A stretch of DNA of 32,359 nucleotides, taken from Candidatus Hydrogenedentota bacterium (GTDB lineage: Bacteria > Hydrogenedentota > Hydrogenedentia > Hydrogenedentales > SLHB01). The notes beneath the pieces were generated by a model. That model was not told the DNA's origin, made no database searches, and saw only the letters and a program-made list of their open reading frames with translations. Below, piece by piece: positions 20,174 to 27,570 of the stretch (its first letter is position 1; each line of letters begins with the position of its first letter). The position numbers and the translations under genes are program-made. Location: the NCBI GenBank assembly GCA_016215105.1, contig JACRLJ010000065.1:1-32359 (forward strand). Direction: 5' to 3'.

Positions 20174-20215
20174 ACGGCTTCGCCGTAAACTCCACCTACC
20201 ACCTGCGGCAGGTGG
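20174..20215. repeat. tandem palindromes upstream of the kinase gene
   Basis: Two perfect hairpins lie side by side: ACGGC-TTC-GCCGT (20174-20186) and CCACCTG-CGG-CAGGTGG (20199-20215). Neither is followed by a T-tract, so they are not obvious terminators. The second resembles short REP-like palindromes that occur in many copies in some bacterial genomes; only one copy is in this window. Confidence 0.5.
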
Positions 20216-20254: not shown

Positions 20255-22585
20255 ATGGACACGGTTGCGGAACTAGCGGCAGGACAAGTAGTCGGCAAGT
20301 ATCGAGTAGTGCGCGAATTGGGCCGGGGTGGGATGGGCATTGTGTACCTCGCCACGGACCTGTCCCTCGGACGAAATGTGGCCCTGAAACTTCTCCATCC
20401 AGCCTTGAGTCTGTCGGAAAACTTCGTCCAGCGTTTCAAACAAGAGGCGCGCGCCATTGCCGCCCTCTCCCACCCCAACATCGTGGACATCCACTCCCTC
20501 GATCTGGTGGATGGCCGACTCCTGATCGATGTCCGTTACCTGGAAGGCGGGTCGCTTGCGAATCGCTCCTCGATACAGGTGATAACGTTGCCTGAGTTGG
20601 TGCGCTGGAGTTCGGAAATCCTAAGCGCCTTGTCCCAATGCCACAGCGCAGCGATAATCCATCGCGACGTCAAGCCAAGCAATATCCTTTTTGACAGCGC
20701 CTCCCGCGCATTCCTTTCCGATTTTGGCCTGGCCAAGGCCTACACTTCCCACGTCGAATCCGTAATCGCAAGCGCGTCCTCCTCCGGCTTCTTCTTGGGT
20801 TCGCCGCGCTATGCGCCTCTGGAAGCTTGGACCGATAGCGAGCCAGATCCTCGCTGGGACGTATACTCACTCGGCATTGTAATCTACGAAGCGATCGCAG
20901 GCGCCGCTCCCTACTCGGGAGCCACCCCGCTCTCGATACTGAATCAAATCATGAACAAATCCGTTCCCCCGCTCGAATCCGTGTGTGGCGGCGTCTCCCC
21001 TGCGTTAAGCCGCCTGGTGGACGATATGGTCCATCGCGATCCGAAGCAGAGGCCACGCGACGGCGCCGACGCCCTTGAGCGCCTCCGCGAGACTCCTGAG
21101 TACGAAACTTCGCAACATCGCGGTGAGTGTACAGTCGTCATTCCACACCCCGCTACCCCTTCGTCGGACAAACTGCCTTCGTCGGTGTCATCGGCCCGTT
21201 CTCCATACAGCCACACTGCTACGGAAACCGCCGGGAGAAGAGCCGCGGCGGCCAACGCGACATACCATGCGCCCGTGAAATCGCGGATCGGCCGCCGGAC
21301 TTTACTCGGTCTGACCGGAATACTCATCGTTCTAGGCGCCGTGGGAGTCGTTGTATACCGGCAAGGCATCTGGCGGGATCCCGAACCCACCACGGCGAGC
21401 GCATCCATTCCCGCCGGCTCGGCCCGTCCAGTTTCCCAGGCGAACCATCCCATCCCATCCGTGCCCGCCGTCGCGGATCTACTTATGCTCCCAAAACAGA
21501 CGACTTCGCCTCGGTTCTCCGTCTATGATGTCACCTTTTCCGAAAGCGGTAACCGCCCGCCACAGTCCTGGTTCATAGGAGATTCCGGCGCCGGCGCGGC
21601 CAATACCGTGTACGCAATTGGACCGTCTTCCCTCGCGCGCTTGAATATGGATTCCGCGGACGGCGCCGTATTCCGTTTGCAGGGGGATTGGGCGGAATAT
21701 CTTGATTCCGCCTCAAGTGTGCTGCGTTACGGCACGGTCACGGGCCAGGGGCGATGGCTACCGGATCACGGGGTATTCACCGCCTCGATGCAATTCAACT
21801 CGCTGCAAGATGGAGCCACTTGGGAGCGGACAACGGCTGGATCGCGAAACACCGCCGAGGCGACAGACACGCGCCTCTGCGTCGTGATCGAGGAACAGCC
21901 TAATCTCCAGGCATTACTCTACAACGAATTGCTTCCTAGAAACCTCCAGTGGGCCAAGGATGTTGAACGGCTTCTACCCGCAATGCGCGACGCGCGCGTG
22001 GAAGTCCCCGCCGTAGCCGACGCGCTCGCCTCCTTCAAAGCGGACGGGCGCCTGGATGAGTCCCTTTGGGCAACACTGGCCAACGACTCGGGAACAATAC
22101 AAGGTTGGCCGGCGGACCGGTCTCCCGTGATGCGGATTCGCAGTTGCGAGCAAGGCGTCTTCGTAGCGTTGCAGGCTCGCAACACGTCCTCGGCGAAGCT
22201 GACCTTTGAAATCTCCGTGTTACATAACTACTACGTACCCATACAGGACGCGCCTGTTTGGACCGCGTCACTGGCCCCGTCTCAGGAACCGGCGTTGAGC
22301 CACCGCGCGCGTGATCGGTCTGACCCGGTGGAATGTACTTGGAAGACAGGTGTCATTGCGGACGGCGGAATCGCTACCGCGGAAGTATTTATTCCCTTCG
22401 ATACCACTGCGAAGGGCGACGCCGCGAATGCGGGCGACCGTTGGCGGATTAGTGCCCGACTATCAAGCATACGCGGCGATGGGAGCGCAGCGACTGAAGT
22501 AATCTGGGGATATCCGGAGTTTGACAAGGTGTTCCACGGGGCCATCCTCGTATTCGGAGACGGCGCATCCAACGAACACGAGTGA
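20255..22585 (+). CDS. membrane Ser/Thr protein kinase with CBM9-like extracytoplasmic domain
   Basis: A 776-residue PknB-type kinase. Residues 16-280 form the kinase domain with all key residues: Gly loop GRGGMG (23-28), Lys45, Glu64, catalytic HRD with Asp138 (HRDVKPSN), DFG 156-158 and the APLE segment. After a juxtamembrane linker rich in Ser, Pro and Ala comes one TM helix (about 350-368), giving a cytoplasmic kinase and an external half. That half holds a beta-rich region (about 415-560) and a C-terminal domain (about 594-768) with DGRLDESLW, GVFVALQARNTSS, TAEVFIPFD and RISARLSSIRG, the pattern of CBM9-like domains. So it is a candidate receptor for sugar or a polymer ligand. The ELWxxDGT gene starts 37 bp after its stop and is probably co-transcribed. 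Confidence 0.9.
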   Translation: MDTVAELAAGQVVGKYRVVRELGRGGMGIVYLATDLSLGRNVALKLLHPALSLSENFVQRFKQEARAIAALSHPNIVDIHSLDLVDGRLLIDVRYLEGGSLANRSSIQVITLPELVRWSSEILSALSQCHSAAIIHRDVKPSNILFDSASRAFLSDFGLAKAYTSHVESVIASASSSGFFLGSPRYAPLEAWTDSEPDPRWDVYSLGIVIYEAIAGAAPYSGATPLSILNQIMNKSVPPLESVCGGVSPALSRLVDDMVHRDPKQRPRDGADALERLRETPEYETSQHRGECTVVIPHPATPSSDKLPSSVSSARSPYSHTATETAGRRAAAANATYHAPVKSRIGRRTLLGLTGILIVLGAVGVVVYRQGIWRDPEPTTASASIPAGSARPVSQANHPIPSVPAVADLLMLPKQTTSPRFSVYDVTFSESGNRPPQSWFIGDSGAGAANTVYAIGPSSLARLNMDSADGAVFRLQGDWAEYLDSASSVLRYGTVTGQGRWLPDHGVFTASMQFNSLQDGATWERTTAGSRNTAEATDTRLCVVIEEQPNLQALLYNELLPRNLQWAKDVERLLPAMRDARVEVPAVADALASFKADGRLDESLWATLANDSGTIQGWPADRSPVMRIRSCEQGVFVALQARNTSSAKLTFEISVLHNYYVPIQDAPVWTASLAPSQEPALSHRARDRSDPVECTWKTGVIADGGIATAEVFIPFDTTAKGDAANAGDRWRISARLSSIRGDGSAATEVIWGYPEFDKVFHGAILVFGDGASNEHE

Positions 22586-22622
22586 AGCCAGAGGGCAATC
22601 GCGTGCCAACCACGGAGATCAC

Positions 22623-25409
22623 ATGATGTGGAATGGAGCTCACGACAGACCAGGCGCAATCGCCGTACGTCCGTATGCCTGGGTGATCTCGCTTATTGTC
22701 GTGCTGCTTCCGCGACTATCCCACGCGGCGCCCGCCGAAACTGCCGCAAAAGAACTGGGTGTCATCAATCCGGATTCGTCGCCCGACCGGCTCCGAGTAC
22801 TGAATGAGGACCTACTCTTCACGGCCAATGATGGCGTGCATGGAGCAGAACCCTGGCGCTATCGGCCGAGCACGGGAGAGATCGGTCTCGTGAAGGATGT
22901 CAATCCCGGTCCGGCGAGTTCGGAACCCGGCGACTATGTGGTCGTCAACGATGTGGCCTACTTCACTGCGACCGACGGGCTGAATCCGGTTTACCTCTGG
23001 CGAACTGACGGGACCGAACACGGCACGAAGTTGGTGCGAAGATTCGCCGGCGGCCCAGAACGAAGACCGACCACTCTGAACGAATTCAACGGGTACCTGA
23101 TGCTCTACGCGGAAGCCAGCGACCACAACTGGAAGTTATGGCGCTGCGATGGGACCTTCGATGGCGCCATCGAAATTCAAAACGGGAAAAAGGGGCCCAG
23201 CTTGTACCAACCCGGCGGCGGTGTTTCCTGCGGCGGCCTCTACTATTTCTGGGCCGATTCCTCGCTGTGGCAGACGGACGCCACCCCGGCCGGCACGCGC
23301 CCCGTAGTCCGCGTCGAGCCCCCTCAAATACCTCACTTTGAACATGATCTAAGAACCTTCAACGGTAAACTCTTCTTCCGAGCCATCACTGCAGAGACTG
23401 GCTTGGAGACTTGGTTCTTTGACCCCGCCGTCCCCGCAACGCGTACGACGCTGCTGCGGGACATTTGCCGCGGAAAAGGGGACTCCAATCCCCAACAATT
23501 CGTCGTGTTCCGCAACCTTCTATATTACCAAGCCTACGACGCCGAACACGGCGCCGAACTCTGGAAAACGGATGGGACGCCGGAAAACACTACGATTGCA
23601 GGTGACTTGATTCCGGGACCGGCAAGTAGCTCACCCCAGTATTTCGCCGTCACCGGCGATATGCTGTTCTTCTCCGCGACAGACCCCGAGCACGGCCGCG
23701 AACTATGGCGGTCCGATGGGACCTCCGGCGGAACAACTCTCGTCAAGGACGCCTACCCCGGCCACGGCGACGGAACGCCATATCAACTGACACCTTTCGG
23801 AAAAATGCTGTTCTATTGCACAAACACTCCTGACTACGGGGAGGAGTTGTACATAAGCGATGGAACGCTGGAAGGTACCCGCATGGTGAAAGACATCAAT
23901 CCCGGTAAATCGTCGTCCGAGCCGTACCACCTAACCGTACTAGACAACATGCTCTATTTTTCAGCCAAGGACGGAGCGCATGGAGAGGAACTCTGGCAAA
24001 GCAACGGCTCCGCCGAAGGCACGGAACTGGTGGAAGACATCAACGTTCCGCCGGGCGCCGTCGCCTCCTCCTTCCCCTGCCGACTGGCCGAGATTGCCGG
24101 TGGGCTGGTGTTTTTTGCCCGCGAAAAACAGGGCAACTTCGCGCTATATATCAGCGACGGTACAAGCGACGGGACGCGTCTGGTAGATTGCCCAATTCCT
24201 CCTCAGGCAAACCTGGATGCCGTGTCTACGGTCAACGCGGCGGACTCCATGTACTTGATGGTAGCCAATACTGGGGCGCCGGGTATGTCATTGTGGCGAA
24301 GTGATGGCACATCCGGTGGCACAACCAAATTGGACGATCTGCCGGAGAACACCGGAGTCATGGAACCTCCGAGCATTGCCGTGGTGGACGGCGCTTGTTA
24401 CTATCCAAAAAGAGACCGGGAGCATGGTCTCGAATTGTGGGCCTGCCCCGTAGCCGGCGGTACACCGGTTCTCGCGGCTGACGTGCGTCTTGGCAATGCG
24501 GACTCCGCGCCTACAGACCTGGTTGCGTGGAAAGGGTCCGTCTACTTCGCCGCGGACGACGGCATGCATGGCGTCGAGCTATGGCGCTATAAACCATCCG
24601 ATGGACTGGCGCCGGTCGCGGAAATTGCGGCCGGCGCCGAGTCTTCGTCCCCAAAGTCGCTCACGTCGGCGGGACAGTACCTGTTCTTCGTGGCCGATGA
24701 CGGAATCCGTGGCGCCGAGTTGTGGCGAACCGACGGTACCACGGGCGGCACGATTCTCATGGCGGACATCTTGCCGGGTTACCCCGGGACCATGCCCCGC
24801 AAACTCACCGCCGTTGGAGACACACTCTACTTTGTTGCCAACGACGGCGTCCGCGGGTACGAACTCTGGAAGTCCGACGGCACTCCCGAGGGAACTGCCC
24901 TCGTCCGCGACATCTACCCGGGGCGTCCCTCCTCGGCCCCGGACTGCCTGACCGACATGAATGGAACACTGTTCTTCAGCGCGGACGACGGCGCACACGG
25001 CGTTGAATTGTGGCGCAGCGACGGTAGCCAGCAGGGCACCTTCCTGTTGGGCGATATCGTGGATGGTCAGACTGGCTCCGGTCCAGCAGGCCTTCGAGCG
25101 ATAGATGGGGTACTGTTCTTCTCCGCGTTTGACCGCCGCTACGGCCGCGAACTCTGGGTCTGCAACGGTGTTCGCGCGGATCCCTCACCTGCCAAAGACA
25201 TCTGCCCAGGGCCGGGCAGCTCGAATCCGGCGGAGTTCTGCGCCGTTGGCGGGAATATCTACTTCCGAGCCGACAACGGAGTACAAGGCGTTGAACTATG
25301 GACTACAGTACCCGGGAGTGACATGGACCATACCACCCGCCTCGTCGGCGACATCCTCGAAACCACCCCTCTGCGCGCCAAGGTCCTCCCCACTCACCCG
25401 AAAAACTGA
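22623..25409 (+). CDS. secreted ELWxxDGT-repeat protein
   Basis: A 928-residue exported protein made almost wholly of repeats of 45-50 residues with the core ELWRSDGTxxGT preceded by a short hydrophobic strand pair (LYFSAxDGxHG) and followed by LVKDINPGxxSSxP. I count about 15 recognisable units, some degenerate (LWACPVAGG, LWVCNGVR). The regular beta pattern would suit beta-propellers, perhaps two tandem ones, but no enzyme motif is visible. The signal peptide is MMWNGAHDRPGAIAVRPYAWVISLIVVLLPRLSHA, cleaved before APA. The frame runs to 22521 upstream, inside the kinase gene, but GGAG at 22614 fixes the start at 22623 or 22626. Adjacent to the kinase, it may be its ligand or an accessory adhesin-like surface protein. 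Confidence 0.85.
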   Translation: MMWNGAHDRPGAIAVRPYAWVISLIVVLLPRLSHAAPAETAAKELGVINPDSSPDRLRVLNEDLLFTANDGVHGAEPWRYRPSTGEIGLVKDVNPGPASSEPGDYVVVNDVAYFTATDGLNPVYLWRTDGTEHGTKLVRRFAGGPERRPTTLNEFNGYLMLYAEASDHNWKLWRCDGTFDGAIEIQNGKKGPSLYQPGGGVSCGGLYYFWADSSLWQTDATPAGTRPVVRVEPPQIPHFEHDLRTFNGKLFFRAITAETGLETWFFDPAVPATRTTLLRDICRGKGDSNPQQFVVFRNLLYYQAYDAEHGAELWKTDGTPENTTIAGDLIPGPASSSPQYFAVTGDMLFFSATDPEHGRELWRSDGTSGGTTLVKDAYPGHGDGTPYQLTPFGKMLFYCTNTPDYGEELYISDGTLEGTRMVKDINPGKSSSEPYHLTVLDNMLYFSAKDGAHGEELWQSNGSAEGTELVEDINVPPGAVASSFPCRLAEIAGGLVFFAREKQGNFALYISDGTSDGTRLVDCPIPPQANLDAVSTVNAADSMYLMVANTGAPGMSLWRSDGTSGGTTKLDDLPENTGVMEPPSIAVVDGACYYPKRDREHGLELWACPVAGGTPVLAADVRLGNADSAPTDLVAWKGSVYFAADDGMHGVELWRYKPSDGLAPVAEIAAGAESSSPKSLTSAGQYLFFVADDGIRGAELWRTDGTTGGTILMADILPGYPGTMPRKLTAVGDTLYFVANDGVRGYELWKSDGTPEGTALVRDIYPGRPSSAPDCLTDMNGTLFFSADDGAHGVELWRSDGSQQGTFLLGDIVDGQTGSGPAGLRAIDGVLFFSAFDRRYGRELWVCNGVRADPSPAKDICPGPGSSNPAEFCAVGGNIYFRADNGVQGVELWTTVPGSDMDHTTRLVGDILETTPLRAKVLPTHPKN

Positions 25410-25558: not shown

Positions 25559-26164
25559 TTGGTCTTGTTGCGTGAAGCGCGAGGACGTTCCGATGTCGGC
25601 CTACTCGATGAGTGCCGAAATGGTGACCCGTCCGCGTTTGATGAATTGGTCCGGCGTCATAAGGACCGCATCTACAACGTTCTGTACCGCTTCCTCGGCA
25701 ATCGCGAGGATGCCCTGGACGTCTCGCAGGAGGTGTTTGTGCGGGCGTACCGGGGCGTCGCCGGCTTTCGTGGCGGCGCGCAGGTCTATACGTGGCTGTA
25801 TAGCATCGCGGCAAATCTCGCCCGCAACCGCCTCCGCGACTCCGGGCGAAAAGGTCGAAACATGAGTACGTCGCTCGAGGCGCTGGAAACCGCCGCGCCT
25901 GGCGTGGCGCAACTGGCCTCGGCCGACAGCGCCGATTCCCCGCGCGCCGTGGCCGAGCAACACGAAACGGATGCGCTCCTGCAACGCTGTTTGGATGAGT
26001 TGCCGGACCACTACCGGATGACCTTTGTACTGCGCACCGTCGAGGATCTCAGCTACGAAGAGATCGCCGACGTGATGGGATGCCCGGTCGGCACCGTAAA
26101 GTCGCGCTTAAACCAAGCGCGCGCGTTGCTGCGCGACCGCCTCCGCGAACTGGGTGTATTGTGA
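25559..26164 (+). CDS. ECF-type RNA polymerase sigma factor
   Basis: A 201-residue sigma-70 family group 4 factor. Region 2 (about 24-90) contains the DEL-x2-RH and DALDVSQEVFVRAYRGVAGF segments with the core-binding helices and the -10-recognising face; region 4 (about 140-195) has the helix-turn-helix YEEIADVMGCPVGTVKSRLNQARALLRD. Regions 1 and 3 are absent, as expected. The frame has no ATG near its beginning; TTG 25559 follows an in-frame stop at 25553, with GGGAG 12 bp upstream, so TTG 25559 or the nearby TTG 25565 is used. The next gene, its anti-sigma factor, starts 11 bp after the stop, so the pair is one operon. Target promoters are unknown. Confidence 0.9.
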   Translation: MVLLREARGRSDVGLLDECRNGDPSAFDELVRRHKDRIYNVLYRFLGNREDALDVSQEVFVRAYRGVAGFRGGAQVYTWLYSIAANLARNRLRDSGRKGRNMSTSLEALETAAPGVAQLASADSADSPRAVAEQHETDALLQRCLDELPDHYRMTFVLRTVEDLSYEEIADVMGCPVGTVKSRLNQARALLRDRLRELGVL

Positions 26165-26175
26165 AGGAAGATTCA

Positions 26176-27570
26176 ATGGATTGTGCGCATGCCAAAGAAG
26201 AGTTCTCAGCCCTGCTGGACGGCGAGTTGACTCCGGAGGACCGCGCCGCCATCGAAGCGCACCTGGCCGAGTGCTCCGAGTGCCTGCGCGACCTGGATGG
26301 AATGAAGCGCGTGGACGTCCGCTACCGTCAACTCGCGCCCCTGAAAGCTCCGGAAGGGCTTGAACACCGGGTGCGCGCGGCAACCCAGCGCGGAATTCGC
26401 ATTCGCACGACCCGCGCGTTATCTCCTCTCCGTGTATGGCCGCTCCTGGCGTCCGCTGCCAGCCTCGCCCTTGTCATAGGCGCAATCGCTTGGACACTGC
26501 ACACGCCGCGCACGGCGAGTTTCAAATTGGCGGAATCGTTCGAAAAGGCCGGGCAAGCAAAGACTGCGCCTGCTCCGGCCACGAGCGATCTCGCGTTGGA
26601 CGCCGCCAAGGAATCCGGGGAGGTGAAACTGAAGTCCGCTAGGCGTGAAGCGCCGGCGGAGGCGGCGCCAGCCCAACCCGCAAGCGCCGCGGCCCAACCC
26701 TCGCCCGCGGCGGCGTCTTCTCCCGGTGCCGAAGCCATGACGCTATCCCCAAGCAAGGCGCCGGCGGCCCCCAAGGAAGCGGCGCCGCCTATCGCCATAG
26801 GAGAAGCGGCTGCGACCGCTGGAATCGAGCACGCCAAACCCAAATCGGTGGCCCCCGTAGCGCACGACGAATTCGACTCGCGCGGGAAGATCTCCGGCGA
26901 CAACGCCGCTCGTTCCGCCCCGGAAACACCTCCGCCGTCCAGCGGCCTCGCTAAGGAATCCCTAGCCCAGCCCGATCGCGCCAGCGAAGCCGAGATGAAT
27001 GCGCCGACGCGCGTTTCCGATCAGCCGCTCTCGACCATCGCGGATTCCATTGCCCCGGGAATCGCATCGGATAAGGGAGGTGAAACAAAGCAAACTCAAG
27101 CCGAAGCCAAAGCGCCGCTCCCCATGGCGCAGGTTGCTCCGGTTATGACGCCACCTGCCGCGCCAACTGCCCAAGTTATTGCCAGAAAGGGTGAAGGCGT
27201 TCGCAGTGCGCCGCGTGCAGATCGTGAAGAAAACGCCCAGTCGTCATTTCTCGCCGGAGCAACGGGAACACGGGCCGCCCCTTCGGCGGCGAAGCCCGAA
27301 GCTCCACGCAAGGCAGACGCCGCTACGGAAGCCACCAAGAAGACCGTCGCGGGACGCACATTCGAACTACGCGATGGCGTGTGGATTCAGCAAGGATACG
27401 AACTCGGCGCCGCTACGCCCACCAAAGTACTGCGCGAATCAAGGGTATTGAAAGGGCTCACGGCAAAGTACACTGAGCTCCCGGCCATCCTCGACCTGGG
27501 AGATCGCGTAATCGTCCGCCTCGGCGATCAGTGGTATCGCGTCGAACCGCCCGACACAAAACCACGATAA
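26176..27570 (+). CDS. membrane anti-sigma factor with zf-HC2 domain
   Basis: A 464-residue single-pass protein. Residues 1-45 are a zinc-dependent anti-sigma (ZAS, zf-HC2) domain: MDCAHAKEEFSALLDGELTPEDRAAIEAHLAECSEC carries the H-x3-C-x2-C ligands (His29, Cys33, Cys36), and this part should hold the ECF sigma factor in the cytoplasm. One TM helix follows at about 87-108. The outer part is a long low-complexity Ala/Pro/Glu/Lys linker (about 120-390) and a compact C-terminal domain (about 395-464, GRTFELRDGVWIQQGYE ... VIVRLGDQWYRVEP). ATG 26176 has AAGGAAG 7 bp upstream; GTG 26161 is a possible alternative and would overlap the sigma stop. It converges with the SDR gene, 6 bp apart. Release of the sigma factor probably needs an outside signal acting on that C-terminal domain. 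Confidence 0.88.
   Translation: MDCAHAKEEFSALLDGELTPEDRAAIEAHLAECSECLRDLDGMKRVDVRYRQLAPLKAPEGLEHRVRAATQRGIRIRTTRALSPLRVWPLLASAASLALVIGAIAWTLHTPRTASFKLAESFEKAGQAKTAPAPATSDLALDAAKESGEVKLKSARREAPAEAAPAQPASAAAQPSPAAASSPGAEAMTLSPSKAPAAPKEAAPPIAIGEAAATAGIEHAKPKSVAPVAHDEFDSRGKISGDNAARSAPETPPPSSGLAKESLAQPDRASEAEMNAPTRVSDQPLSTIADSIAPGIASDKGGETKQTQAEAKAPLPMAQVAPVMTPPAAPTAQVIARKGEGVRSAPRADREENAQSSFLAGATGTRAAPSAAKPEAPRKADAATEATKKTVAGRTFELRDGVWIQQGYELGAATPTKVLRESRVLKGLTAKYTELPAILDLGDRVIVRLGDQWYRVEPPDTKPR

Follow-up and report, generated by a model that had tools for sequence, protein, structure and literature searches.

A Hanks-type Ser/Thr kinase and the secreted ELWxxDGT-repeat protein encoded directly behind it likely constitute a split receptor kinase, in which the repeat protein, a predicted chain of beta-propellers, serves as a dedicated extracytoplasmic partner. 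The gene pair lies in the window, the 32,359-nucleotide stretch of DNA analysed here, which sits in a 6.68 Mb, 171-contig genome assembly of a Candidatus Hydrogenedentota bacterium. Because the kinase gene almost always stands beside a propeller gene and single-protein forms exist in relatives, the two proteins probably form one sensor together. That the propeller is a functional partner of the kinase we hold to be quite probable; that propeller and ectodomain bind each other directly we infer, and consider likely. Features of the pair are collected in Table 1.

Table 1. Features of the kinase and repeat-protein gene pair, in window coordinates.
Feature	Position	Strand	Remarks
Transmembrane Hanks-type Ser/Thr kinase with barrel and CBM9-like ectodomain	20255..22585	+	776 aa
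Protein kinase catalytic domain, residues 16-267	20300..21055	+	all catalytic motifs present
Single transmembrane segment, residues 349-367	21299..21355	+	hydropathy
Ectodomain part 1, 8-stranded beta-barrel (model), residues 420-534	21512..21856	+	conserved GxWAEY and RxGTxxGxGxW motifs
Ectodomain helical linker (model), residues 538-571	21866..21967	+	conserved LLYNELLPRxLxWA motif
Ectodomain part 2, CBM9-like beta-sandwich (model), residues 580-769	21992..22561	+	canonical aromatic clamp absent
GGAG Shine-Dalgarno-like site of repeat-protein gene	22614..22617	+	direct reading
Secreted ELWxxDGT-repeat protein, 928 aa	22623..25409	+	starts 37 bp after kinase stop
Signal peptide of repeat protein	22623..22727	+	cleavage likely SHA|AP, direct reading
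Predicted N-terminal half, four-stranded blades, likely beta-propeller 1	22764..24047	+	boundary approximate
Predicted C-terminal beta-propeller, model residues 445-880	24060..25367	+	structure model, comparison

Judged by its motifs, the product of the first gene is a Hanks-type Ser/Thr kinase. A Pfam search assigns Pkinase (PF00069) to the catalytic domain with an E value of 2.9e-41, and the complete set of catalytic motifs is found, namely GRGGMG (23), ALKL (43), EARA (64), HRDVKPSN (136), DFG (156), and APLEAW (187). The original prediction of a kinase complete in its catalytic residues and carrying one transmembrane helix is thus borne out. Identity as a PASTA kinase was dropped, the score being 225.5 bits against the 450-bit equivalog cut-off of NF033483, and the Pfam search found no PASTA repeats in the kinase. 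The kinase start is preceded, at a distance of about 40 bp, by CCACCTGC-G-GCAGGTGG, an inverted repeat without mismatch and a possible operator (window positions 20199-20215).

The second gene encodes the secreted repeat protein of 928 residues that had been recognised from the sequence, and both its signal peptide and its repeat family agree with that description: TIGR04534 (ELWxxDGT) matches 17 stretches of the protein with an E value of 3e-221 and 715 bits, against a threshold of 65 bits. A search of the + strand of the intergenic gap revealed nothing resembling a promoter or terminator. In an AF2 model (pLDDT 83.7, pTM 0.60), the protein is a chain of four-stranded blades. Foldseek places the tandem-propeller receptors LRP2 and LRP6 at the top of the matches to this model and also retrieves the ectodomain of the BT4673 sensor, and the C-terminal portion compares with solved single propellers at Z scores of 22.7 and 22.4. 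We predict from these comparisons that the protein consists of tandem beta-propellers, the N-terminal half being the less well supported. Searching the full text of 5.39 million open papers returned no mention of ELWxxDGT. The original prediction contained neither this propeller fold, nor the N-terminal barrel of the kinase ectodomain, nor the recurrent FHA-sigma54 activator described below.

Structural modelling of the kinase ectodomain with AlphaFold (pLDDT 89.1, pTM 0.88) gives a two-part architecture. The best matches of the N-terminal barrel include a designed barrel, Cap15, and avidin-like proteins; since the designed barrel scores as high as the others, the barrel fold is generic, and a specific identification as Cap15 or avidin was dropped. 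The C-terminal part had been read as CBM9-like over residues 594-768. Comparison of the model with solved structures confirms that this part adopts the CBM9 beta-sandwich fold, with wider limits, at Z scores of 16.5 against Caldicellulosiruptor CBM9.3 (7nwn) and 15.8 against Thermotoga maritima Xyn10A CBM9-2 (1i82), and Foldseek matches the model to CBM9 with an E value of 2.3e-6. Pfam finds nothing in the C-terminal 404 residues of the window kinase, CBM9_1 included, and just 2 of the 33 homologous sequences in our ectodomain alignment match CBM9_1 at E values up to 1 (best, 1.2e-4). A profile built from the 33 sequences ranks TmCBM9-2 first, weakly, with E values of 0.12 for the whole ectodomain and 0.022 for the C-terminal part, and the C-terminal domain alone as query yields no match in a PDB sequence search. 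Given these weak profile matches, the CBM9 assignment is carried by the structure comparison.

The gene pair is conserved well beyond the window. A profile search for the ectodomain across 68 Hydrogenedentota genomes, which confines the tested range of the pair to one phylum, recovered 42 loci in 27 of the genomes. At 40 of these 42 loci, which are related by descent and do not count as independent trials, the kinase is followed on its own strand by an ELWxxDGT gene; at the other two, the contig ends inside the kinase (L108) or inside a downstream activator gene (L091), leaving 40 of 40 testable loci paired. The adjacency first noted in the window thus recurs in related genomes, and with it and the CBM9 fold the original prediction has withstood both of the refutations set for it. 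Several pairs overlap by 1-4 bp, and such overlaps or gaps of a few bp recur at many loci; at one locus (L082) an activator gene separates the kinase from the downstream ELWxxDGT gene. The window's genome contains three pairs (contigs C92, C99, and C12) among approximately 25 kinases and five ELWxxDGT ORFs, a triple occurrence for which a rough Poisson estimate gives P ~1e-5. Across eight genomes with long contigs, each of the ten full-length ectodomain loci is paired, and ELWxxDGT is likewise missing from the two genomes that lack ectodomain kinases.

The genes that flank the pair in the window (DegT, ECF sigma, anti-sigma) are not kept at other pair loci, and hence the pair itself is the conserved unit. 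The repeat is not in itself the mark of a kinase partner, since these genomes also encode ELWxxDGT proteins to which no kinase is linked, and on plasmids of other phyla the four ELWxxDGT genes inspected occupy unrelated contexts with no kinase neighbour. One of the unlinked proteins in the window's genome (L080, 1320-5489), 1389 aa in length, ends in a region that looks dockerin-like by eye. Two loci, L104 and L110, each hold two kinase-ELWxxDGT pairs in tandem, head to tail.

At eight loci (L098, L113, L115, L116, and L129-L132), a single ORF encodes the kinase, a transmembrane segment, and an ELWxxDGT propeller, and the barrel-CBM9 ectodomain is missing. In a tree of kinase domains, the paired kinases form one clade (support 0.90) that excludes the other kinases of the window's genome. 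Seven of the fusions make up a sister clade and the eighth, L098, is nested inside the paired clade, a distribution that calls for at least two independent swaps. That the propeller has repeatedly come to occupy the receptor position is the strongest of the indirect evidence for its acting at the outer face of the kinase.

The original prediction had offered a polysaccharide or the repeat protein itself as the ligand of the ectodomain. The eight fusions strengthen the case for joint action of ectodomain and repeat protein, and the polysaccharide alternative is weakened. In characterised CBM9s the sugar is clamped by two aromatic residues, Trp71 and Trp175 in TmCBM9-2 (PMC8280721), and in columns mapped by sequence alignment, not by structural superposition, none of the 33 ectodomain sequences has a counterpart of this clamp: the Trp71 column is almost always aliphatic, and the Trp175 loop is shortened and without the clamp Trp. 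Glycan binding by the ectodomain is consequently doubtful, and given how the tryptophans were mapped, the missing clamp counts as evidence against classical sugar binding, short of proof. These observations weigh against an explanation in which the ectodomain senses a glycan and the propeller, a surface or adhesion protein under shared regulation, is an output that has no contact with the kinase. The CBM9 fold would suit such a sensor, the genes of one operon are often products instead of partners, and the window's genome encodes other proteins with CBM9-like domains, one of them with GH123 glycosidase domains; the absence of the clamp and the placement of the propeller at the receptor position in the fusions nevertheless make this explanation unlikely. 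Fold comparison also matches the C-terminal domain to DOMON-type proteins, namely the ethylbenzene dehydrogenase gamma subunit (2ivf_C, Z 13.3) and an Nxr subunit (7b04_C, Z 12.4), as would be expected of a heme or redox sensor in place of a sugar-type or docking module. Among potential heme ligands, one His reaches 73%. Pure CBM9s score higher, however, and conservation in the ectodomain is strongest at W, R, G, E, and P, with Met, Cys, or Lys at no position the consensus at >=70%, so that we regard a DOMON-type sensor as very unlikely.

Adjacency might instead reflect descent alone, the pair being co-inherited with no shared function, and all ectodomain kinases do fall in one clade of one phylum. 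Against this stand ectodomains that have diverged down to 20-29% identity and flanks that are not kept, while the two genes have remained neighbours at every testable locus, and fusions that arose at least twice. Mere co-inheritance is in our judgement highly improbable.

In the split receptor kinase that we favor, the kinase would reside in the inner membrane, its catalytic domain facing inward and its barrel and CBM9-like ectodomain facing outward. Exported and folded as tandem beta-propellers, the ELWxxDGT protein of the same operon would act as co-sensor of this ectodomain, and its binding, alone or ligand-loaded, would alter the association or activity of the kinase. Thr phosphorylation read by an FHA-sigma54 activator would be the likely output. 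The conserved pairing, the predicted folds, the natural fusions, and the recurring activator gene are what the analysis shows; we infer that the two proteins touch, that a ligand is involved, which way the signal runs, and that the activator is phosphorylated.

About one locus in three also carries a gene for such an activator, which lies within ~3.2 kb of 13 of the 42 pairs and of 3 of the 8 fusions. The encoded proteins contain FHA, Sigma54_activat, and HTH_8 domains, some with weak or sub-threshold GAF matches. Among the 16 neighbouring activator genes, one of which is cut by a contig end, 14 retain GAFTGA, and in 13 the FHA domain fits a pattern of the phospho-Thr type (GR...SRxH/Q). FHA domains bind phospho-Thr (PMC1262709), which renders a link from kinase to activator plausible. 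No FHA-sigma54 activator lies beside the window pair or beside the C99 and C12 pairs. The window's genome encodes three full-length activators of this type away from its pairs, so that the output at the window locus is a guess, and we propose an FHA-sigma54 activator there only tentatively, at somewhat less than even chances. An ECF sigma factor gene followed by that of a zf-HC2 anti-sigma factor (window 25559-27570), 150 bp after the repeat protein, was considered as the output and dropped because this pair is not kept at other kinase-ELWxxDGT loci. An FHA-GAF histidine kinase encoded divergently (L079, 1083-2792) adjoins the C12 kinase-propeller pair of the window's genome. Elsewhere (L134, 4720-5313, genome G021), fragmentary ELWxxDGT ORFs near an FHA-sigma54 activator are perhaps a decayed locus.

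FHA-domain sigma54 enhancer-binding proteins are reportedly the subject of work by Jelsbak et al. in 2005 on Myxococcus xanthus. The activators that neighbor the pairs resemble these proteins in their domains and differ in being linked to a kinase-propeller pair, with none at the window locus. Besides FHA-sigma54 activators, propeller receptor kinases and PQQ- and WD-repeat kinases (PMC1262709) are already known. Mycobacterium tuberculosis PknD, an NHL beta-propeller receptor kinase, joins a Hanks kinase, one transmembrane segment, and an extracytoplasmic beta-propeller sensor (PMC3322341), a layout shared by the Hydrogenedentota fusion kinases. In the window, by contrast, the predicted propeller is a separate secreted ELWxxDGT protein with far more blades than the six of PknD, and the kinase has a barrel and CBM9 ectodomain of its own, the PknD-like fusion being seen instead at the eight loci of relatives. 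PASTA kinases (PknB/Stk1) likewise combine a cytoplasmic Hanks kinase, a juxtamembrane linker, one transmembrane segment, and an ectodomain, the repeats for which they are named being absent from the window kinase. The CBM9-like domain shares its beta-sandwich with the Thermotoga and Caldicellulosiruptor modules, whereas its identity to them is ~8-14%, the clamp is absent, and it is borne on a kinase instead of a glycoside hydrolase. The ectodomain of the Bacteroides hybrid two-component protein BT4673, and LRP5/6, resemble the repeat protein by fold match as tandem extracytoplasmic propellers serving a receptor, but they belong to other repeat families and hold their propellers within the receptor chain, not as separately exported proteins.

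The literature searched contained no separately exported propeller partner, no barrel plus CBM9 ectodomain, and no alternation of split and fused forms. We put at even chances the broader proposal of a receptor-kinase class, seen here in a single candidate phylum, in which a separately exported tandem propeller sensor engages a barrel and CBM9-derived docking ectodomain, alternates with a fused form, and signals via FHA-sigma54 activators; if true, this class would be a Ser/Thr analogue of a binding-protein-assisted two-component system. Few ligands and partners are known for bacterial Hanks receptor kinases, and comparative genomics here names a specific extracytoplasmic partner. With that partner named, natural fusions in its support, and a transcriptional output suggested, a complete signalling chain becomes testable in vitro. 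One group of ELWxxDGT-repeat proteins, which occur in other phyla too, gains a proposed function.

Two minor observations concern sequences outside the pair. The kinase ectodomain profile also matches the CBM9-like domain of a protein with GH123 domains (L137, 260-3103). Within the window, the 9-bp unit GTCCGACTT is repeated in tandem for 11.8 copies at 97% match (positions 2374-2479), just after a transporter ORF that ends at 2358 and upstream of an mnmG-like coding region, and is possibly a variable-number repeat.
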